In this document: positions 3,882 to 49,780 of the stretch, in pieces
Position numbering within the stretch: the stretch's first letter is position 1
Layout of the letters: each line of letters opens with the position of its first letter
DNA from: Tubiluchus corallicola
Lineage: Eukaryota; Priapulida; Priapulimorpha; Priapulimorphida; Tubiluchidae
DNA: 64,000 nt
Assembly: GCA_030141605.1 (NCBI GenBank)
Contig: JAQGDQ010000675.1
Location: forward strand, 1 to 64,000
Direction: 5' to 3'
The notes under the pieces: generated by a model
Told to the model about the DNA's origin: nothing
What the model saw: only the letters and a program-made list of their open reading frames with translations
The model's database searches: none
Translations under genes and position numbers: made by a program

Positions 3882-3886
3882 ATGGG
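3882..3886. repeat. Target-site duplication, left
   Basis: ATGGG immediately outside the left LTR, matched by ATGGG at 7874-7878. The unoccupied duplicate at 15004-15008 carries it once. Confidence 0.85.
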
Positions 3887-4005
3887 TGTTATGTATTAAT
3901 GCGTCAGAACGCATTGTAAATAAAGTAGTTCGGTAACACGCATAATGGTGTACTATGTTTCGTTATTTCTACTAGATAGAAATCCAGGTACATCAACATA
4001 AAACA
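3887..4005 (+). repeat. LTR, left, inverted relative to the element body
   Basis: The 119-bp sequence begins TGTTATG and ends CATAAAACA. It is the reverse complement of 7755-7873 apart from two substitutions (a T/G near base 18 and a T/C near base 68). In a normal provirus it would be a direct repeat. Confidence 0.9.
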
Positions 4006-4023
4006 TGGTGTCAGAAGTGGGAT
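4006..4023 (+). other. Primer-binding site copy, 18 nt, at the inverted junction
   Basis: TGGTGTCAGAAGTGGGAT is complementary to the 3' terminal 18 nt, CCA included, of tRNA-Leu(CAG) as I remember that tRNA. The match ends exactly at nt 18, and integrase antisense sequence follows at once. Confidence 0.75.
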
Positions 4024-4559
4024 ATTCTCTTGGTGTATTTCTGCGATTAAGTAGCGCCAAGTACGGATCTTTTCTAGCTTCGTAGCATTTAATAAGTATG
4101 TTCTTCGCTATACCAACTGATTTCTCTACTAATCCATTAGCTTGTGAGTGTCTTGGTGATATGCGGCTATGATCAAAAGCAAATTGATGTGCAAATTCAG
4201 CAAACTCATTGCTATTGAACTCTTTTTGGTATGCCGTGAGTACAAAACCATTTTTTGAGCTGTCTTATGACCGTAGATGCTTTGAATCTCGTTCTAATTT
4301 CTCAATCTCAAAAAATTCACTGTAGTAGTCAGTACAAATTAACCACTTGTAACCTAAGCAGTCAAACAGATCAGATGCTACATGTATCCAAGGACCTTCT
4401 GGAATTTCTGAAGGCATTAGTGGCTCTTTTTGTTGCTTCATTCTGTGTGCTTAACATGTTGCACATTTTGATACAATATCTTCTATCTGTTTGTTGATAC
4501 CTGGCCAATAAACAATATCTCATTCTAGTTGTTTACATTTAACCATACCTAGGTGGCTT
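4024..4559 (-). pseudogene. Retrotransposon integrase, truncated
   Basis: Translated fragments in shifting frames show the zinc-binding region with WPG and a C-x2-C pair (about 4500-4430). The first catalytic aspartates lie in a region near 4380-4290, and the signature SPRHSQANGLVEKS near 4110 contains the catalytic glutamate. Coding similarity stops at 4024 against the 18-nt primer-site copy. In-frame stops and frameshifts are present. Integrase would join element DNA to the host chromosome; this copy cannot. Confidence 0.75.
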
Positions 4560-6196
4560 TCATGAAATTATATCTAGCGTTCGTTTCTGCATTGATTTTG
4601 GCACAACCACTCTTCCACCTTTGAAGATGATTCCATCTATGTAGCTAAGCTCTTCTTGGAAGTCAAAATATGGCCTTACAAAAGGACTAACTTGTAATCT
4701 GTGTTCAGGCCATCCTTCGGGTGAAGTAATTACTCGCTTTAATTCTTGCAGTGCTTCATCTGTGACTGTTTCTCTTTTCATTTCTTCCAATCTCTTTGGA
4801 TTGATGTTCGATGTGCTAACAACTTCTTCTGCAGAGATACTAAAGATGTGACTGAAATCATCTGTTAAGTTTGGACCACTATCTGCAAGATATGCACGAC
4901 TTAGCGCATCTGTAACTGATATTTCTGTGCCTCTTTTAGCCACTAGTTTGAAGTCATATTGCTGCAATTTTAGTCGCATTCTTTGGAGTCTGAGTGGTAC
5001 TTGATATAGTGGTTTCTCTAAAATTCTGATCAAAGGCAGATGGTCAGTCTCTACTACTATGTCGCTTCTTTCGTATACAAAAGTATGGAACTTCTTCATT
5101 GCAAATACAATTGCCAGAAGTTCTTTCTTTATTTGTGCATATGCGCACTCTGCATCTGTAAGTGCTTTTGAGCCATAAGCAACTGGTTGCTGATTTTGCT
5201 GTAAGACACATCCTAGACCAGACATGCTGGCATCACAAGAGATAGTAATTGGCTCTGTTTGGCTGTAAAATTTCAAGGTTGGTGCTGTAGTCATCACTTT
5301 TTTAATTTGACGGACTGCTTCTATATGAACTTCATCGAAGTGCCATGAGAACTGTTTTTCGCTACTCTCTTTAATTAGCTGTCTGAGAGGCTCTGTTACA
5401 GTTGACAAATTGGGTAAGAATTTACATGTGTATGTAACCATTCCTAATAGCGTTTGGACTTCCTTTATGCACTTTGGCATTGGCATGTCAGTAACTGCTT
5501 TGACTTTGTCTGGATCGATCTGAACGCCTTTGCTACTGATAATATGGCCTGCATATTTAACACTTTCTTGACATAATGCTAGTTTTCTCGGTGAAAATGT
5601 GACATTATTCTCTCTGGCTCTTTGTAATATGCATCTTAGCAACTCAATGTTCTTTGACTGCTACTGAGTCTGCAAGTAAGTCATCAGTTATAATGTTCAA
5701 TTTCTCTATGTCTCCAAAGATTTCCATCATCTTCCGTTGATATAGTTCAGGGGCGGAAGATATGCCCATTGGAAGTCTCCTGTACATGTATCGGCCAAAC
5801 GGTGTGTTGAACGCTGTTAACAAGCTTGACTCTTCATCAAGTTCTAATTGGAAATAACCAGAGTTGGCATCTAGCACTGTGAAATGTTGGCTTCCACTGA
5901 CACGAGTGATTATATCATCAACAGTATTAATTGGGTAATACAAGTAAGGCTTTGTTTAAATCCTTAGGGTCAATTGTTAATCTCACATCAACATCTGGGC
6001 TTAACCCTTTCTTTTTCACAACATGTAATGAGCTGCACCAAGGTGTGGGAGTTCCTACTGGAATTTTTTCAATAATTCCCATTTCAACTAGTTCATCTAA
6101 TTTCCTTTTTGCAGGTTTACGTAAGGCTGCAGGAATGGGCCTTGGAGGGTGAGAGGGAAACTTTGCCAGGCATTTTTCCAATACCCTGAAACACAT
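4560..6196 (-). pseudogene. Retrotransposon reverse transcriptase and RNase H, frameshifted
   Basis: Three consecutive open pieces (6196-5927, 5943-5644, 5642-4560) together carry the Ty3-type order. The first has the RT N-terminus with GTPTPWCSSLHVVKKKG. The second has FTVLDANSGYFQ, the PFG/LPMG block and the active site as ITDD instead of the usual YxDD. The third has the thumb and connection, then RNase H with CDAS, an E in KKELLAI, DHLPL and TDALSRA. Two frameshifts separate the pieces. They would have been one pol polyprotein acting in cytoplasmic particles. Confidence 0.88.
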
Positions 6197-7010
6197 CTAT
6201 ATATTCATACAATAAAGCTGTAACTGCAGGAAATGGGCATTTTTCAATGCTTTCATGCACTTGTGCATTTGATGTAGGCCTATGTTCAACATGATTAACT
6301 CTTTGCAACAATTTTAGCTCAAGACAAGTTTCTAAACTAAGTATATTTGGTACACTGCCGTTTACTAGCTCACATTTCAACCAATAATTTGCTCCTTTGT
6401 ACACAACTGGTAATTCAACAACACGTAAAGGTTTAATGGGAGCACTACCAAAACCATACATAACTGTATTAGATTTAGCTATTTTAGGTTTAACGTATAT
6501 TGTATCATACTGCTTTTTCGAAATTACATTTACATCTGCAGCTGAATCTATCTTAAAGCTCATATTGCCGCCATCACGAAGTTTGAAATTCACAGTCCAG
6601 GCTTTCTTGCTGTCATCTGATCGACATGAAGCCTGATTTGTTTTGCTACACAAAATAAATGACTTATCTACACAGTTGTCATAATTATAAGTATTTCTTG
6701 AGTCATCATTTACACTTAGATTATTTACAGACCTACTCAGATCATGTTCACTATACATGCAAGCATCATTATGTGAAACATTCTGTGATTCTACACAGTT
6801 TACTCTTTTTCTGCATACTCTTGCAAAATGATTGTATCGTTTGCAAAAATTACATTGCTGCTGCCATGCTGGACATTTTCTCGGTGGATGTGAGTAACCA
6901 CAGCTGTAGCATGTACTATCATGCATTCTGAAACGTTGATTAAAACTGCGGTCACATTTCTGCGTGTATTTTCCTCGCTGTGAAGTATTGCTACGCTGTT
7001 GCTGGAACAA
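6117..7010 (-). pseudogene. Retrotransposon nucleocapsid knuckles and aspartic protease
   Basis: Open frame of 297 codons. Near residues 30-70 are two zinc knuckles, CYSCGYSHPPRKC (C-x2-C-x3-H-x4-C) and CNFCKRYNHFARVC (C-x2-C-x4-H-x4-C), for RNA binding. Near residue 150 the protease active site reads IDSAADVNVI, with DSA in place of the commoner DTG/DSG. The frame overlaps the RT piece and shifts into it near 6150-6120. Confidence 0.8.
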
Positions 7011-7028
7011 CGCTAAGTCACGACGCTG

Positions 7029-7710
7029 CTAATTTTTGCTACTCGGCAAAACTGACTGTTGTCGGTCATTTGTTGAAAAATCATGTCGATGAATGTTGTG
7101 GTACCCACTTCTGCTTCTTCCACGACCACGAACAGTATTTATATTCACGTGCTGGTCTCCACTATTAATTGCTGTGTACAAAACACGAGACTGTTGTTGT
7201 TGCTCAAATAACTGCGCCCTTTTAAAATTTCGTCCAAGTTCAAATCTTCGCTCCACAGTTTTTCTCTTAACTTTGAGTCTCTTACACCATTGCTAATTGC
7301 AACACACAATTGGTTATTTAATCCATCACCAAATTCGCAACTGACAGCTATGTCTTTCAATGCAGTAATAAAACTAATGAATTCAGCAATACTCTCATAC
7401 TGACCTTGTTTTCTCTGCTGAAATTGTGTAATGTACCCTTTACGTAATTTTCGTGGTTCGAAATAATTGTCAAATTTAGTGGTGACTGCTGTATATTCAG
7501 ACTTTTCTTCGTCTGTTAAGTTAAGTTGTTGAAAACTTTTTGATATTCCTTGCCAATTGTGTACAGTAACAACGCAACTTTCTGTTCGCCATTAGCATTC
7601 TGCTTACCAGCGGGTGTCATGAACACGTTGAATTCGGCTTTAAATTCTTTCCAGTCCTGGGCGAGGTTCACTTTATCCGTGGAAAATTTTAGTGGCTTTA
7701 GATTCTCCAT
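7029..7710 (-). pseudogene. Retrotransposon gag, frameshifted
   Basis: The probable gag start is MENLKPLKFS at 7710, 32 nt inside the right primer site. The frame breaks near 7516, continues in a second frame to about 7230, and in a third to 7029, ending in an RGRGRSRSG-rich stretch. The order after the right LTR and primer site shows that the right end is the element's true 5' end. Confidence 0.7.
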
Positions 7711-7741
7711 ATTCTATTTACTTTGTTTTCACTAAATTTAT

Positions 7742-7754
7742 ACTTCTGACACCA
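7742..7754 (-). other. Primer-binding site, genuine 5' copy
   Basis: On the minus strand directly after the 5' LTR, TGGTGTCAGAAGT matches the tRNA-Leu 3' end for 13 nt and then diverges, in contrast to the 18-nt match at the left junction. Confidence 0.7.
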
Positions 7755-7873
7755 TGTTTTATGTTGATGTACCTGGATTTCTATCTAGTAGAAATAACGA
7801 AACATGGTACACCATTATGCGTGTTACCGAACTACTTTATTTACAATGCGTTCTGCCGCATTAATACATAACA
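7755..7873 (-). repeat. LTR, right, the true 5' LTR
   Basis: 119 bp on the minus strand, TGTTATG to CATAAAACA, followed by the primer site and gag. It is bounded outside by ATGGG. Confidence 0.9.
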
Positions 7874-7878
7874 ATGGG
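7874..7878. repeat. Target-site duplication, right
   Basis: ATGGG, the partner of 3882-3886. Beyond it the sequence continues in register with the unoccupied duplicate at 15009. Confidence 0.85.
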
Positions 7879-13615: not shown

Positions 13616-15003
13616 GTTCCAATAGCAAAAATATTTATTGTACTGACCACAGCTGCAAGCTTTAAGTACGTTTATCCACAACTGCCGACACTCGGTTTCC
13701 TAAGATTGTAGATCACAGTTGCGAGACTTCAATTCACGTGCAGGAGGCGACAACTATATTGAAAAGAAACCTAAAATAAAATTTACAGTTAATAGTGCAG
13801 CATCCATATTGAGCGCGTTATTATTACAGTAAACTTTGCATAAAACATGATCAAACAACTAAAATTTTCACCTAACCCAAAGAACTTCAGCAGAAAGGAT
13901 GAAATCCTTTGTTTGTTTCGCAAAAAACATCAATTAACTCAAATTTTCGCCTAACTGAAATAAAAAATTATGGTCCATTTAATAAAAAATGGGTAACTTA
14001 CTTCTCCTTACTCCAAAATGCAATTTATACTCTAGAAAAATGAAAAAGTTTTGTACAATTCAAAAACAGTATCGTCTTCCGGGAAAATTCTGATAAGGCA
14101 TACCCCACTTCCAATTATTTTCTGTGGGATAGATCTTTGCGTGTTGTTCACGAGTCCTTTTGCAACATGAAAAATGGTGTTTCCCTACATAATTTGTTAA
14201 ATTTTATATAATTGTCACCAAATCTCGTCGTTTATGTCTAGAAGGGTCAACTTTCTGTCTTCTATTTAGCTCGCCATCTGGAGGAGAGGTTTAGAGTTTC
14301 TACGCTGAAAAAAGGTCTTCATCACCAAACTCAAAATGTTTTTTTCAGTCGTTTAAATTTGAGTTATGCGGATTTTACTGTATAACTATGCAACAGGTTT
14401 CAACTTTAAGAACACAATCTAGAAACTTTGTCTACTGGCACTAAAGCAAATAGTGCTAATAAACCTCATGGAGGCAGCGACAAATTAACCATTGGGCTAA
14501 CTAGGCTATAGACTTAAGCCCTAATTTATAATAGGGCCCCAAATTCCTGAGACTGATGACCAATCAAACAGAAATTATGCAATTTAGTAAACGGGATAAC
14601 AAAATCATCTAAACAGAACATGCTAAAGATGAGTTTGTTTCAACTTGTTTATTTAGCGACTAGTGAAACCATAATTAAACTATAAATCAAGCCAAAAAGA
14701 AGAATAAGAAATATATTAATAATAGAAAAGTGCAAACTGAAACTACATTTTTACAAAAGACTAGACGTGAACTTGTCAAAATAAACAAGGTTGTACCAGA
14801 AAAAATGCAGAAAAATGTACAAGATTTTACCTAATCCTTGAGAACTAAAAAAGAACACAACAGGTAAACAATTGATCCAAGTTTACAATGAAACACCGCA
14901 GCAGTAGGCAATATAAGAATAAAACACAACTCGCACATTTTGCATCCTTATCATATATATCATTCGCCTATCACGCATCATTTCCAAAAAAGGTAACTAC
15001 AAC
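13616..15003. repeat. 5' flank of array 3 and duplication arm
   Basis: 13616-14160 duplicates 2822-3370. 14810-15003 duplicates the left flank of the retrotransposon (3735-3886), with an internal replacement. The middle part (14170-14800) has no partner here and no recognisable gene. Confidence 0.7.
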
Positions 15004-15008
15004 ATGGG

Positions 15009-15790
15009 AAATCAGAAAGATGAGAATGAGAAGCAGAGATTAAACCCACCAGGACCACTACAAACATCGAGGGACAGTCAAACAAATTTGAAACACAGAA
15101 ACGGATAGAGTGCTCTCACCGCTTCATTCATTACATCATTCCATTCTGAAGCACTAAATGTTTTTTTATCATGTGATTCACTTCAAATTTTCAGATTATT
15201 TTCATTACTTTTTTTCTTCCACTGTGTGGGACAATCTAACAAGCCCTGCTTTTTGATTGCCCGCAACACATTTACATTTGCATATAGGTTAACAGTGTGA
15301 GGCTTTTCTTGTGCAGAAATAATAAAAACTTATTTGTATTATGTTCATTGTAGGCCTTTTCACTATATACTGTAAATGTGCAATGTGAAATAAATGACTT
15401 AAGAGAGTGCGATCAGGTACCACCAATGATAGTTGGGCATTAAGAATTAAGCAGTGCTTCACAAAAAATGTATAAGACTGCCGCTACCTTGAGATCTTGA
15501 CCATTACTTGCAATATAATTATAATGCTCTAATTGAAATGCTAAATACAAGGTTGAAGCCAATCCAATCACCTCTGCATGCAGTATGGTGAGAGCCAAGC
15601 TGGCTTTTGCGATGCTCCACAATTCTAGTACAAAGACGATGACCGGCACACAGCACTTGCCATGTCGTTCACACTTGTTAGTTCACTTTCAGAGGGGAAT
15701 CTCGACATCTGAACATCACATCATCTTAGGAGCTTCCGTTATTCAACTGTTGCGCGTGGAGTAGGGCACTAACCAAAACAGGGCAATTGG
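15009..15790. repeat. Segmental duplication block, partner of 7879-8660
   Basis: Continues directly from 15004-15008 ATGGG, the empty retrotransposon target site, and aligns with the right flank of the insertion. Small indels and substitutions; no conserved frame. Confidence 0.8.
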
Positions 15791-20365: not shown

Positions 20366-29228
<8,863 letters not shown>

Positions 29229-33938: not shown

Positions 33939-34060
33939 TACAATAGCATGGGCTGCGAGGTATTGTCAAGCGTACACTAATGCATTGTCTGGCACACTTA
34001 ACCTTTGACCTTTTAACGATCGTCATCAATCGCTGGAACTGTGAAAAGGCTTATTGAATG
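33939..34060. repeat. Dispersed repeat fragment (family of 28555 and 57890)
   Basis: Right part of the repeat interrupted by the MITE: caatagcatgggctgcgagg, then ttaacctttgacctttt and atcaatcgctg. Confidence 0.75.
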
Positions 34061-45300: not shown

Positions 45301-48300
45301 TGTATATAGTTTTGCACTTTAGTTTTTTTAGTATGCACTGGACGCATTTGTCTTGAACAGTGTTGTTATGTTAACATTACGCTTAGGCTTAGTCAATTTT
45401 ATTATAATGAGTGAACCATTTTAATGACAAATAAAGAATTAATATATATATATATATGTTTTTGTTTGGATTCATAAGTGCATGATTTGCACATTCTTTT
45501 ATATTGGGTTATTCCATGTCAATTCACCCAAAATTTTGGATCATCTTCACTCGACCATCTTAGATTTCGATGAAACTTAACATCGGTATTGGGCCTTATG
45601 AGAATAGTTTATGTTCAAGATTTTAGGTCAATCGGTCCATCGGATCAGAAGTTGTGAGAATTTGAAATTTTGGGCTTTTCACACTCTTTCGCGTTTGCCT
45701 GAAATTTCAAATATTCACATCTCAATACCTACTGGAACAAAATTCACGGGAGAGATTAACAAAATACCTCGCATCAACTTCTGTAGAAACACGACCTGGC
45801 ACTATTTTCAGTATTTCCGAACCAAAAAGAACAAACAGCTTGTCAGCAGCTTCCGAAACTTGCTCAGCAACAGTCCTAGGGATAAAAAAAACATCGAAAT
45901 GAAATCATTCGTCAATGATTCATTTTTCAAAAGTTGGTAAATTTCAACGAGCTAGAAAAAAGTTACATAAGAAAACATCAAATTCTGCACTATCATTTTA
46001 TTTACAAAGCTTAGAATACTGTTACTTGAGCTTTAAATAAGCAGTTGTACAACAGTAATCTATAATAATAATAATAACAACAACAACAACAGCAACAACA
46101 ACAACAACAACAACAATAATAATAATAATAATAATCTTTATTTAAAGTCGGCTTTTGGGTCAACAATTAACATTAGCTCAAAGAGCTATTATCGCCGACT
46201 GTAAATAACAACCTACAACTGCATAACAGAGACTATTATTACCCCACTTTTACCCTAAATACCACGCGTCAGGCAGGGCAACAGCAGGTACCATTTTTAA
46301 AGTCTTTGGTATGACCCGGCTGCTGGTTCGAACTCACAACCTCCCAGACGGAAAGCACACGCATTACCACTAGACTAAACCGTCTGGTCAAGTATGCAAT
46401 CTGGGTCGATATCAAGCATAATTCTCTAAGTTGTAGGCTTGCCATATTAGAAAACTAGCAATACGGGACACTCTTAAAATCCCTTTCTATATTACTTTAT
46501 TTACAAACTTATACATGCCTACAAACCCGGACAAACATACTATACAAAAGTAGAGACATAAGCTAAAAACATAAAGCAAGGATTTTAATGGGTTATGAGG
46601 AAAGCAAAAGTATAATCATTTGAACATTATTTAATACAAGCTAAAACAATTATGTAAAGACGAAATCATTTGAAAATATTTATTTAATACAAACAACAGA
46701 GAAATATCATTATTATTATTTAATACAAGCAATATAGGTAATAAAAGAAATTCTGAGAAAGTGAAATTACTGCAAAATTCTTATTCAATAGAAACAATAT
46801 AAAAAATATATAAAATAATACAATATACAATATACAATATATATAATATACACAATACAATACAATACAATATAAAATTATTATTTAATACAAACAATAC
46901 ATAAAATAAACTAAAAAAGTTGTTTCATATGGAGACAAACAAAACTGAAAAATAGTTTCTCTTATGAAAAATATTTTTACGAAACATTTTACGAAATCAT
47001 ATTTTTATTATGAAATTATAATATTACAAAATTACAAATACTGAAATTATTACAAAACACGGGACATTTGGGTGTCCCAGAAAGATCAGTATGGGATAGG
47101 GGTCAAAATTACCAAATATGGGACATGTCCTGCATGTAAGGGGGACATCTGGAAACTCTGCTAAGATGAGACAAAAAAACAACCGTAAGTGTAAATGGTG
47201 CGGTGCATTTTAAAAACAATTAGTTCAGCTAACAAGAAAAGAAAATTAGCAGAAAGTGCAACGTTTTTATAACTAAAAATTTTCTAAAGTTGTCAAGTTT
47301 CTACGTAACATCAAATAGTATCAAGAGTTCAAGAGTTTTGCAAAAATTAATTAATGAATCTGTATTTGCAAGAAGGTATAGAAATTATATTATAGTATGA
47401 TTATTATTTGTACATACTTTCCATGCGTCTTCCCATATTGTATTGCACTATCAAAAAGTGGCTGGTACTGAGGCATTTGCGAGGCAGCCAGTACAAGGGA
47501 TGGATTCGTGGTTGCATCCGTTGGCTTGTATTGCTTCATGGCTAAAACAGAACAAAATTCAATTCAATTTATTTATTAACTCCGCAAGAATGATAAAAAT
47601 ACAGTATCAGGAATACATGCAATATTTCGAAGCAAAGGAGAAGGGCAGCGAAGAACCCGTAAGTTATCTAGTCAGCCACCCTTAAATAGCTATGATTAAA
47701 TAAAATTAATTTTGGCATCGTTCTCAATTTAAATTTGTATTCGGTTGATGTGTGTAATTGGCAATTAAATGATAGATATCGTAATACTGTAGAACATTTT
47801 AGTTTAAATAACGAAAGATTTACAATTCTAAAATACTGTGAATCATGCGAAGCAAACACAATAAAAATAACTTAAGATTTATAACATAACAGAAAATGCA
47901 TAATTTGAGCATTAACTAAAAAATCCGGCAAAAAAACAAAAAACAGTAGAATGATCAACCAAAGTTGTCGAGAAAAAATATAATAGATTAAACCAAGGAA
48001 AAATAAGGCAAATATAAAATCTATTGTTAAAATTTACGATTATTTGTCCATTAAATATTGTCAAGGTGTTATAGGGCTACAGACTTCTCTGTTATTTTTT
48101 CTGAAGTATTTCCAGCTTCTTGTTTTGAACAAACTATAGCCAATAGAACATTGATTAGTAATTACTTGTACCAAGCGGAACCTCATGAATGGCACCTAGT
48201 AAAAAAGCTTTCTGATCCAATGAAGCATTTTACTGTTAAAAAAGGTAACGAAAAAGCTGACAAAGAGGCAGTAACTTTCGGGCAGCCACTCTGTAAACAG

Positions 48301-49780
48301 TTTGTCTTTCGTGCACTCTGTCTCTGGTGAAGCAGACTTTAAACTACTTCACAGTTTGGCTAATTGGAAAAGGTTATCTCTTATCATTCATATCTCTTAT
48401 TTTTCCTTATTATCTTATTTTTCCTTAGCTTAACTTATTATATTCTGTTTATGAACATCTTTGGTTGATCATTCTACTGTTTTTTATCGGATTTTTTTAG
48501 TTAATGCTCACATTATCCATTTTCTGTTATGTTAAAAATTTTAAGTTACTTTTATTATGTTTGCATCGCATATTTACAGTATTTTAGAATTGTAAATTTT
48601 GGTTATTTAAATTATAATGTTCTACAATATTGCATTTCCCATCAGTTAATTGCCAATTACACACGTCAACAGAATTCAAATTTAAATTGAAAACGGTGCC
48701 AAAATTAATTTTACTTAATCGTTGCTATTTAAGGGTGGCTGACTAGATAACCTACGTGTTCTTCACTGCCCTTCTCCTTTGTTACGTAACATTGCATGCA
48801 TTCCTAATACTGTATTTTGTTAATTCTTGAGGAGTTAATAAACGAATTAAATTGAATCTTATCAAATTGTTATGGTTGCAATAGTGAAAACAGAGAAGTG
48901 ATTTATCTCAAAATAAACAGACTTGAACTCTGTTTATAAAAATGGCAGTTCAGTGCACTTTTACCGACACAATGTACTACAAAACGATCGTGGAAGAGAG
49001 CCGTTACAAAAGATTACAATAGCAAAGGTTTTGCTACTTTTTTTCAGTACTGATGATGGTAGCACTCTTCATGTAATAATCAATTGTACAGTCTGTAAAA
49101 TAAAAAATAGTAGTTCATGTAGCAAAGTAAAAATGAACAGTAGATTTTAAAAAGTGCTAAAATAGACACATTATTAATGTTTTGTCTTGAAGTGACCTCC
49201 TGAAAAATGAGATTTTTGCTACAGTGAAGGATAAGAGGTGAATAAAGTGAAATATTAATATTGAAGGAGATTCATAATTTCTTCAAGCTTTTCAGATGGA
49301 GGGGTCATTCGCATACCACTTATCGTATTACCACCTTGTAAGGCAACAGATAAACGCTGGAATAAAAAGCTTGTAGACCTAGTCTCCCCTGTGGCACAAC
49401 TGAATTCGTTTAACAAAAGTACCAAGATATTTTTCCTTCAGCGCCAATAGTGCCAACAGTTTCAACAGCAATTGGTATAAAATTGAAATTTGGCAGAAGA
49501 TTGTTGTATTTCCTACATTTTCTGTTTTCGGCTAACTGAGCTGCATAACCAGCGTAACTGGATGAGCCAACCAAATTTGAGTGTGCCAATGTATCAACAC
49601 AAGTAAAATCCCAAAGTTAGTTCCAAACTATCAATGTGTTACAATTCATTACAAGTACAGGAATTTGTTATGCAACAAATGAAAGGTGGTGTATTTTATT
49701 AAAGCTGTCTCACCTTCAAAGTCTCCGGTGTCAGCAACCACAGTAGTCACTGCTTTCAACTGCTCTAGCTGACTTGCCAT
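36227..49780 (-). CDS. TALDO1: Transaldolase, complete, 9 exons
   Basis: Class I aldolase-type enzyme of the cytosolic pentose-phosphate pathway, moving a dihydroxyacetone unit from sedoheptulose-7-phosphate to glyceraldehyde-3-phosphate. Minus-strand exons: 49780-49714, 47541-47418, 45875-45768, 43397-43266, 42248-42188, 42094-41980, 38932-38803, 38061-37994, 36393-36227. All junctions are GT-AG and in phase; 972 nt = 323 residues. Asp17 (VADTGD), Asn35 (DATTNPS), Glu96 (RVSTEVD) and the Schiff-base Lys132 ([12 protein letters not shown]) fall at the numbers known for E. coli TalB, which supports both the start and the splice model. [21 protein letters not shown] and [11 protein letters not shown] follow. 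The start ATG has the context gccATGG. A possible acceptor lies 28 nt upstream (49808), so a 5' non-coding exon is likely. Introns are rich in repeats. Confidence 0.97.
36700..37300. repeat. Dispersed repeat in TALDO intron 8 (family of 52659-53228)
   Basis: Ordered similarity with 52780-53140 (gaagtacagtgctactgtaa, tcagtgtgttgtacta, gcgcgaacgtgaaattgtgt). Its left part is similar to 60450-60640 (gcgtttctgataattaaata-like). Ends not defined here. Confidence 0.7.
37994..38061 (-). CDS. TALDO1: TALDO exon 8
   Basis: Encodes [18 protein letters not shown] then CPDT. Acceptor ttatag, donor GTAAAA. Confidence 0.94.
38463..38540. repeat. TG/TGCG microsatellite
   Basis: Interrupted (TG)n with cgtgcgtgcgtg blocks, in TALDO intron 7. 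Confidence 0.85.
38803..38932 (-). CDS. TALDO1: TALDO exon 7
   Basis: Encodes [31 protein letters not shown] and LAGCDLLTI. Acceptor ccccag, donor GTAGTG. Confidence 0.95.
39052..40630. repeat. 37-bp satellite array, about 43 copies, in TALDO intron 6
   Basis: Unit ctacgtctcatgcatgta + [tc]gatcatcaatgatac, 37 bp, nearly invariant apart from one T/C site and rare variants (atatc, a one-base loss near 40001, tatgtctc at 40560). Begins about 120 bp from exon 7. Confidence 0.97.
41980..42094 (-). CDS. TALDO1: TALDO exon 6
   Basis: Encodes [20 protein letters not shown] then [18 protein letters not shown]. Donor GTGAGT. Confidence 0.95.
42188..42248 (-). CDS. TALDO1: TALDO exon 5
   Basis: Short exon encoding [20 protein letters not shown]. 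Donor GTAAGG. Confidence 0.95.
42590..43110. repeat. Degenerate short tandem array that switches strand
   Basis: Up to about 42880, irregular approximately 18-20-bp units contain catttggac / tatttggac. From about 42885 the complementary words gtccaaatg and cctatatgtcc take over. The end holds a perfect 37-bp doublet (aattacctatgtgcccaaga...). In TALDO intron 4. Confidence 0.7.
43266..43397 (-). CDS. TALDO1: TALDO exon 4 (catalytic lysine)
   Basis: Encodes [20 protein letters not shown] then [19 protein letters not shown], with the Schiff-base lysine at residue 132. Confidence 0.97.
43948..44389. mobile_element. TA-flanked MITE, complete
   Basis: 442 bp between TA dinucleotides, in TALDO intron 3. 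The ends are CAGACAACCTCGGGTATAAG and, reverse-complemented, CAGTCAACCCCGGATATAAG. Subterminal copies of tataaggga / tcccttata. Same family as 11741-12075. No transposase. Confidence 0.8.
45040..45460. repeat. AT-rich tgtaatgta-type irregular repeat
   Basis: Two loosely repeated approximately 75-bp segments (tgtaatgtaa...atgtcaaatgtat), followed by aataaagaattaatatatat at 45431-45456, like a retroelement 3' tail. In TALDO intron 3. Confidence 0.45.
45768..45875 (-). CDS. TALDO1: TALDO exon 3
   Basis: Encodes [20 protein letters not shown] then [15 protein letters not shown], with catalytic Glu96. Acceptor ccctag, donor GTATTT. Confidence 0.95.
46060..46390 (-). mobile_element. tRNA-derived SINE with (ATT)n tail
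   Basis: On the minus strand the head (46388-46310) has tagtctagtggtaatgcg (A box) and gagttcgaaccagc (B box) with tRNA-like spacing. A body of about 170 bp follows, then an end aaagattattattatt that runs into (AAT/AAC)n at 46060-46135. In TALDO intron 2. The family is not identified. Confidence 0.75.
46400..47170. repeat. AT-rich repetitive stretch in TALDO intron 2
   Basis: Repeated ttatttaatacaa words (46620-46900) and ATACA runs. The flanks carry cgggacac... (about 46455) and ...gtccc / gggacat (47050-47150), possibly degenerate element ends. No gene. Confidence 0.4.
47418..47541 (-). CDS. TALDO1: TALDO exon 2
   Basis: Encodes [20 protein letters not shown] then [20 protein letters not shown], with catalytic Asn35. 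Acceptor ttttag, donor GTATGT. Confidence 0.96.
47553..48005 (-). repeat. Inverted-repeat arm, left
   Basis: Reverse complement of 48405-48862, roughly 85% identical by eye, e.g. agtagaatgatcaaccaaag against ctttggttgatcattctact. Its outer end attcaattcaatttattta resembles a non-LTR element tail. Confidence 0.85.
48006..48404. other. Spacer between inverted arms
   Basis: About 400 bp containing a 90-codon frame (48058-48330) that I do not recognise. It starts without a plausible context and is probably chance or a decayed element fragment. Confidence 0.4.
48405..48862 (+). repeat. Inverted-repeat arm, right
   Basis: Partner of 47553-48005. Ends ggagttaataaacgaattaa, then attgaat. The word gggtggctgac links it to 18890-19080. 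Confidence 0.85.
49265..49600 (-). pseudogene. Retroelement (non-LTR) C-terminal domain fragment
   Basis: On the minus strand 49596-49450 reads [20 protein letters not shown], then [20 protein letters not shown] and [10 protein letters not shown]. After a frameshift [17 protein letters not shown] follows (about 49350-49300). This order is typical of the conserved tail seen after reverse transcriptases in many invertebrate retroelements. Decayed and isolated in TALDO intron 1. Confidence 0.6.
49714..49780 (-). CDS. TALDO1: TALDO exon 1 (first coding exon)
   Basis: ATG 49780 in gccATGG; encodes [20 protein letters not shown] then FE plus one base. Donor GTGAGA. An in-frame extension upstream stops at a likely acceptor (tttag/atactcc at 49808). 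Confidence 0.93.

Follow-up and report, generated by a model that had tools for sequence, protein, structure and literature searches.

An integrated Ty3-type retrotransposon with inverted long terminal repeats and a tRNA-Leu scar in the priapulid Tubiluchus corallicola

In yeast Ty3, the first plus-strand strong-stop DNA, tagged with a copy of its tRNA primer, is displaced as a dead-end product, and the primer-binding site is not inherited from the tRNA (PMC5371799). In human immunodeficiency virus type 1 (HIV-1), the review PMC13191261 describes plus-strand strong-stop DNA as ending after an 18-nucleotide (nt) primer sequence through a tRNA modification, 1-methyladenosine at position 58 (m1A58). 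Here we describe, in 64,000 nucleotides of the genome of the priapulid Tubiluchus corallicola (GenBank assembly GCA_030141605.1, contig JAQGDQ010000675.1, positions 1 to 64,000 of the forward strand; this whole stretch is called the window), a Ty3-type element that was inserted with its two long terminal repeats (LTRs) in inverted orientation and that carries, at its left inner joint, 18 nt with an exact complement in the 3' end of a tRNA-Leu. The likeness to yeast Ty3 and Ty1, as PMC5371799 describes them, has three parts: a Ty3-type element, a strong-stop DNA with a tRNA copy and progeny that keep the RNA-type primer site. In the yeast elements, however, 12 nt are copied into a product that goes no further, whereas here copies of 18 nt or longer lie in integrated inverted, palindromic or deleted elements. 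The pattern agrees with the yeast Ty3 scheme if its dead-end product is taken to re-enter by mistake.

Three further systems invite comparison. In complex LTR insertions of the Triticeae (PMC1950507), an intact 5-base-pair (bp) duplication around abnormal LTRs was likewise the ground for inferring a reverse-transcription error; unlike the window element, those insertions are three-LTR fusions of two elements through template switching, and none of the words inverted, strong-stop, PBS or tRNA occurs in the PMC1950507 text. For HIV-1 proviruses with asymmetric LTRs (PMC9278108), an aberrant transfer of plus-strand strong-stop DNA has also been proposed to yield integrated proviruses, but these have an intact 5' LTR and a deleted 3' LTR, and their strong-stop DNA goes to the usual primer site on a deleted template rather than in reverse to an ectopic one. 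DIRS-1 (PMC5633606) resembles the window element in being bounded by inverted LTRs, which in DIRS-1, however, are normal and accompanied by the use of a tyrosine recombinase. The accessible part of PMC11226609 holds nothing on strand transfer, and among the matches listed from titles and abstracts of open-licence PMC papers none describes an integrated element that has both inverted LTRs and a joint copied from tRNA. Aberrant strand transfer is known in LTR retrotransposons; the present case would add a diagnostic tRNA scar.

A preliminary description of the locus, made from its letters alone, had reported inverted 119-bp LTRs with two differences and with the unique 3' (U3) end outermost on both sides, and had argued that the element entered the chromosome in this form rather than being rearranged later by recombination. 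The observation of an inverted-LTR element is confirmed: the LTRs are reverse complements except at 3904 (T versus G) and 3954 (T versus C), both outer ends are U3 ends, and the inverted arms (3887-4018 and 7742-7873), each made of 119 nt of LTR and 13 nt of primer-binding site, extend over 132 nt with 98% complementarity. The argument for insertion in inverted form also gains support, from the 5-bp duplication and from a paralogous site elsewhere in the window. The joined flanks align to this site (14801-15258), where the element is absent and ATGGG occurs singly, and one integration therefore inserted the inverted form. Nested or adjacent insertions are ruled out by the common ATGGG and the empty site. 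A BLAST search of the window revealed no second LTR of this kind and no second interior.

At the left end, the plus strand reads ATGGG, LTR, TGGTGTCAGAAGTGGGAT, AT and then antisense integrase sequence. The tRNA-Leu(CAG) gene found in the genome at C144 (C and L numbers are our handles for contigs and loci) was recognised by ARAGORN and scores 54.6 bits with the Rfam tRNA model. When its 3' end is extended by CCA and reverse complemented, it matches the left inner sequence at 18 of 18 nt and the right inner sequence over 13 nt, and the left match diverges at nt 19. Counted back from CCA, 18 nt reach position 59, and the copy stops just before A58. An LTR followed by a tRNA copy that ends before A58 is the arrangement expected of strong-stop DNA, with A58 methylation in this species inferred, and the left end looks like plus-strand strong-stop DNA joined in inverted orientation to the integrase region. 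A 22-mer, TCGAATCCCACTTCTGACACCA, and an 18-mer, ATCCCACTTCTGACACCA, are given as small RNAs from human material in PMC12025293 and PMC10559169.

With the LTR as query, at least 52 matches were found in the genome (40 of 63 candidates scored); therefore this is a real repeat family, here family A, for which all counts are lower bounds from one genome. Flanks were examined in the 30 loci of this search and in stretches around other places. The pattern of an LTR end followed by the primer site, with up to two mismatches, occurs at 21 places, and its reversed control at 0. In all 11 loci where an LTR end and primer site are not followed by the gag leader, the next bases are GGGAT (window left, C1736, C106, C1714, the C2118 array, C2118b, C2235, C1112, C1335, C713 and C1952). 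In all six leader-bearing places found, GGGAT is replaced after the short site by ATAAATTTAG (window right, C675, C2087, C1349, whose primer site is altered and which has further changes, and C2163 twice, once with the LTR end only). A Fisher test of this association gives 8e-5. Left out of this count were C1757 (an unrelated match), C1741 (a palindrome without the 18-mer), C2085 (a leader with no recognisable LTR and primer site before it) and LTRs without any primer site, for instance single LTRs and 3' LTRs.

Among the family A places examined, four hold inverted LTR pairs (the window, C1736, C106 and C1741, some with partial arms) and several hold direct pairs or arrays, a tally that the preliminary description had called for. 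Exact 5-bp duplications flank three U3-U3 insertions: the window element (ATGGG), the C1736 palindrome (GACCA) and a palindrome of a second family in C440 (ATGGG). As a control, 10 of 14 single family A LTRs have exact 5-bp duplications. The two right-LTR variants of the window element are the rarest in matched contexts (for 3904, G in 1 of 31 contexts; for 3954, C in 1 of 32), and because each occurs in one matched context only they probably arose during or after the insertion event.

The sequence that follows the 18-mer varies from locus to locus, and seven junctions map to family sequence. The window copy enters the integrase region in inverted orientation after two extra bases; C1736 enters the LTR at position 108, inverted, with three shared bases; C106 enters the LTR end, inverted; C1714 enters the LTR at position 29, direct; the C2118 array enters just before the polypurine tract (PPT), direct, with other copies as reference; C1112 enters the 3' interior, direct; and C2235 has 12 nt inverted and then continues direct through a short overlap. 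In six of the seven, the acceptor has AT immediately ahead of the joint, the same two bases with which the 18-mer ends, and this leaves the donor end ambiguous between 16 and 18 nt; the window junction is unambiguous. Five other copies of the integrase region were found, and all five extend past the break of the window copy, one with a small deletion there. At the break, other copies read CACCAAGAGA followed by TGA, and the window copy reads CACCAAGAGA followed by AT and then ATCCC. The preliminary description had named a joint at 4023/4024 in another full-length copy as a sign of inversion after insertion, and none of the five has it. For C1335, the 8-nt tail was considered as a copy of the 13-nt primer site; 7 nt match only, and the junction was counted as unmapped.

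We propose, with a probability of roughly three in four, that the window insertion is a Ty3-type complementary DNA (cDNA) that was made wrongly, tRNA-tagged strong-stop DNA having been joined ectopically. Plus-strand strong-stop DNA would start at the polypurine tract and copy the U3, repeat (R) and unique 5' (U5) regions and then 18 nt of the tRNA-Leu primer, synthesis presumably stopping before a methylated A58. Since no more than 13 nt of the tRNA are matched in the primer site of the element itself, the last five bases, GGGAT, would be unpaired at the normal transfer site. Instead of undergoing that transfer, the 3' end would have been joined to plus-sense template in the integrase region and extended in the manner of minus-strand DNA until, with pol and gag copied, it reached the primer site at the 5' side, and the other end may have been completed through the normal second transfer with another strong-stop DNA. 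The linear product would have U3 at both termini, both probably used by integrase, and its insertion with a 5-bp duplication is recorded by the two ATGGG copies and the unoccupied site. Elsewhere in the genome, a donor with this tRNA tag would have been joined in direct orientation, giving internally deleted and tandem-LTR copies, or in inverted orientation, giving LTR palindromes. The primary error most likely lay in reverse transcription, with integrase then using the U3 ends on offer, because the internal joint reveals an abnormal molecule, an LTR and 18 nt reversed onto a truncated integrase region. The preliminary description had suggested that integrase joined two U3 ends. This interpretation is partly supported: the use of two U3 ends would stand, but it was presented as the peculiarity of the case, and the molecule itself was already abnormal. 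A short 13-nt primer site that leaves GGGAT unpaired is a plausible driver of the error.

Several observations weigh against this account. The window junction has no shared AT and shows two extra bases instead, and because of this end joining or template jumping fits the window copy as well as mispriming does. The binomial test of the shared AT in six of seven junctions (P 1.8e-6, with AT at 8.1%, or 0.081, of acceptor positions) is post hoc and takes the junctions as independent. On mapping, the junctions of C1335, C2118b and C713 gave no acceptor, C1952 lies outside the mapped set, and the C2118 array junction maps well only to other copies and not to C409 or C675. Among the palindromes, C106 is scarred but has no duplication and a truncated left end, and C1741 has neither the 18-nt scar nor a duplication. 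Because scarless rearranged copies of family A exist (C1741, tandem partial LTRs in C1632, the deleted C1991 and the internally inverted C2214), the tRNA-tagged donor is not the sole source of rearrangements.

A different origin for the joint, which we consider unlikely, would be host repair that end-joined two cDNA pieces, a double-stranded LTR with its 18 nt and an integrase-truncated cDNA, before or after integrase used the U3 ends and with no priming by reverse transcriptase (RT) across the junction. The two extra bases and missing AT of the window junction are in keeping with this, and C1335, where an LTR, the 18 nt and 8 further bases are flanked by the 5-bp duplication GTGAG, indicates that a piece of that kind can be inserted. 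The strong-stop 3'-terminal AT shared by six of seven junctions is better predicted by polymerase priming than by random joining, though end joining guided by microhomology might select for it too, and the two-step copy in C2235 is what template switching predicts. That the 18-nt primer site is instead a family polymorphism, the left part stemming from a subfamily whose RNA carries the 18-mer, appears quite improbable. Short copies (the C2118 array, C2235 and C1112) do hold the 18-mer between a pair of LTRs and could transcribe it, but the sequence downstream varies by locus, the site is short in six of six leader-bearing places, and the extra 5 nt are tRNA sequence whose match stops before A58.

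Mispriming by tRNA-tagged DNA must also be set against events outside reverse transcription. A normal provirus could later have been stripped of its 3' part and, by recombining with another of the many LTR copies in the genome, have acquired an LTR in inverted orientation; this is very improbable given the perfect ATGGG on both sides with a single ATGGG at the empty paralogous site, an inverted LTR that stops exactly at its U3 end by the duplication and on its inner side at the tRNA stop, and the likewise U3-U3 arrangement with duplications in C1736 and C440. Equally improbable is an assembly artefact, whether false inversion or chimera: independent contigs show the same logic, the duplication and empty site fit an insertion, and the C1736 palindrome is only 242 bp long. 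Autointegration, the attack of a cDNA end on its own interior, is a known source of inverted LTRs in retroviruses; it was rejected on the position of the joint, which lies at the end of the 18-nt tRNA copy and not at the LTR CA terminus, and since the product seen here kept two free U3 ends, which integrated, we give it next to no weight.

If the proposed origin is true, the insertion preserves in natural sequence an intermediate that has otherwise been studied in vitro and in virus-like particles. This Ty3-type element would then copy 18 nt of the tRNA that primes it, leader-bearing copies would, like those of yeast, not inherit the copied stretch, and integrated elements bounded by two U3 ends could arise when the intermediate is transferred to the wrong place. 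It would become testable whether the error is driven by a short primer site, whether integrase can use U3/U3 ends and how some non-autonomous mini-LTR elements originate. LTR finders that demand direct LTRs would overlook inverted copies.

Table 1. Coordinates of the window element and of its unoccupied paralogous site
Feature	Position	Strand	Remark
Target-site duplication ATGGG, left copy	3882-3886		Single copy at paralogous empty site
Left LTR, opposite in orientation to the element, with its U3 end (TGTTATG) on the outside	3887-4005	+	119 nt
TGGTGTCAGAAGTGGGAT, complementary over 18 nt to tRNA-Leu 59-76 (CCA included)	4006-4023	+	Positions counted back from CCA end
Two extra bases AT, between tRNA copy and integrase sequence	4024-4025	+	Comparison with other copies
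Integrase region, cut at junction, reading frame broken	4026-4562	-	Open reading frame pieces and comparison with other copies
Ribonuclease H (RNase H) region of pol	4563-5660	-	Pfam PF17919 2.2e-26, PF17917 1.1e-25
RT fragment	5647-5955	-	Pfam PF00078 8.4e-13
Several broken frames with pieces of gag, of nucleocapsid-like and protease-like sequence and of N-terminal RT	5930-7713	-	Labels by eye
Element's own primer-binding site TGGTGTCAGAAGT, 13 nt complementary to tRNA-Leu, then ATAAATTTAG leader	7742-7754	-	
Right LTR (element's 5' LTR), U3 end outermost	7755-7873	-	
Target-site duplication ATGGG, right copy	7874-7878		
Paralogous unoccupied target site, one ATGGG	14801-15258	+	

The element reads on the minus strand, with gag and pol in broken pieces. 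Its earlier assignment as Ty3-like is well founded, on RT and RNase H recognised by Pfam and on the integrase domains PF17921 (above cut-off) and PF00665/rve (below cut-off) detected in homologous pieces of C409; Pfam found no integrase domain in the two short pieces of the window copy. The pol order of RT, RNase H and integrase, with the integrase domains seen only in the C409 homologue, is that of Ty3/Gypsy elements (Metaviridae), whose traits also include the TG...CA LTRs, tRNA-complementary primer-binding site, PPT (AAAGAAAGGAGA, seen in the window element's relatives) and short target duplication found here. Direct LTR orientation, a further trait of the group, is absent from the window copy, which is a derivative of its Ty3/Gypsy family and not a normal member. 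The element may resemble the mag lineage of Ty3/Gypsy. We also take the gag-side pieces to be gag, nucleocapsid-like and protease-like from motifs (a CCHC-like knuckle, DSAAD), and five such pieces scanned gave no Pfam match. DIRS-like elements are not known to make a target duplication, and a DIRS-like identity was ruled out by the 5-bp duplication, by integrase in the C409 relative and by direct LTR pairs in relatives; a Pfam scan of nine pieces of the window element found no recombinase. Two other family A copies are structurally unusual: C2118:174045-174864 (L008) is a five-LTR array with spacers of ~56 bp (primer site, ~26 nt, PPT) and a flanking 5-bp duplication, and C2214 (L050) has a large inversion within the 3' interior, probably another template switch.

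Longer tRNA copies and a second LTR family (family B) came from a genome search with the tRNA 3' end, which gave 14 exact places. Eight loci were scanned for tRNA genes: L059 is one by both ARAGORN and Rfam, and L057 by Rfam only. By eye, L070 resembles an intron-bearing tRNA-Leu, and the remaining 11 of the 14 places are tRNA-like stretches adjoining other sequence. In C281 and C440, the adjoining sequence is an LTR present elsewhere in the genome, which in C440 forms a palindrome around a ~50-nt tRNA-Leu copy and in C281 a tandem array with tRNA copies between the units and the duplication GTTAT. Twelve further family B LTR ends were examined, chosen from at least 42 matches (40 of 126 candidates scored). 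Five have the leader, each of them with a primer site of 14 nt, and differ little from one another over the stretch examined; two have the 18-mer joined to RYAQIEKEVLSCVFAVTKFHQYVYG-coding sequence (RNase H-like by eye; one translated); one, C2154, has a longer tRNA copy joined to the LTR; and four are without a primer site. As parallels to family A, C440, C281, C2154, C2252 and C330 hold either longer tRNA copies or the 18-mer, with LTR or RNase H-like sequence adjoining.

In C1952 (L071) and C2154 (L083), the copy runs past position 58 with A in place of the expected T, after which the tRNA match resumes, and such a change opposite position 58 fits misreading of m1A58 by reverse transcriptase. 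A genome search with a pattern across position 58 gave 56 matches, 39 exact and 17 with one mismatch; opposite A58, the exact ones have T (10 places), A (5), G (1) or C (23). The 23 C-class places are a multi-copy TGGTGTCAGAAGTGGGATCCGAA with C opposite A58, of the form TGG...GGGATCCGAA, which may be the normal leader of another family. Read-through past A58 is a lead, not a result. Taking the two families together, we lean somewhat towards a broader reading in which tRNA-tagged strong-stop DNA, far from being a dead end in this genome, would repeatedly prime at ectopic sites in at least two families of LTR elements, its 3' tail left unpaired by primer sites of 13-14 nt. The products, acceptable to integrase, would be U3-U3 palindromes, inverted elements, tandem LTRs and mini-elements, and its scars would record a stop or misreading at methylated tRNA (the 18-nt stop; A opposite 58 in C1952 and C2154).

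Beside LTR-like ends, tRNA-Leu copies longer than 18 nt also occur at L060, L062 and L058 (C281, C440 and C99); we take these to end near anticodon-loop position 37, judged by eye on an assumed numbering, and they possibly mark stops at another modified base. L063, L066 and L069 (C588, C1361 and C2081) belong to a repeat with 250 bp in common on the upstream side of a tRNA-Leu-like copy, which itself runs through the anticodon. The window itself has a tRNA-like match with three mismatches at 22823. Arrays with an 84-bp period occupy 289-2925 and 11991 onward, in at least two blocks, and encode C2H2-like zinc fingers (by eye) at 1652-2821; the insertion flanks align to the neighbourhood of the second block. 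A minisatellite with a 37-bp period, most of its copies ~98% alike, runs from 38892 to at least 40300, and other inverted repeats of the window lie at 28555-28645 and 33966-34056 (91 nt, 87%) and at 47554-47816 and 48598-48860 (263 nt, 86%).

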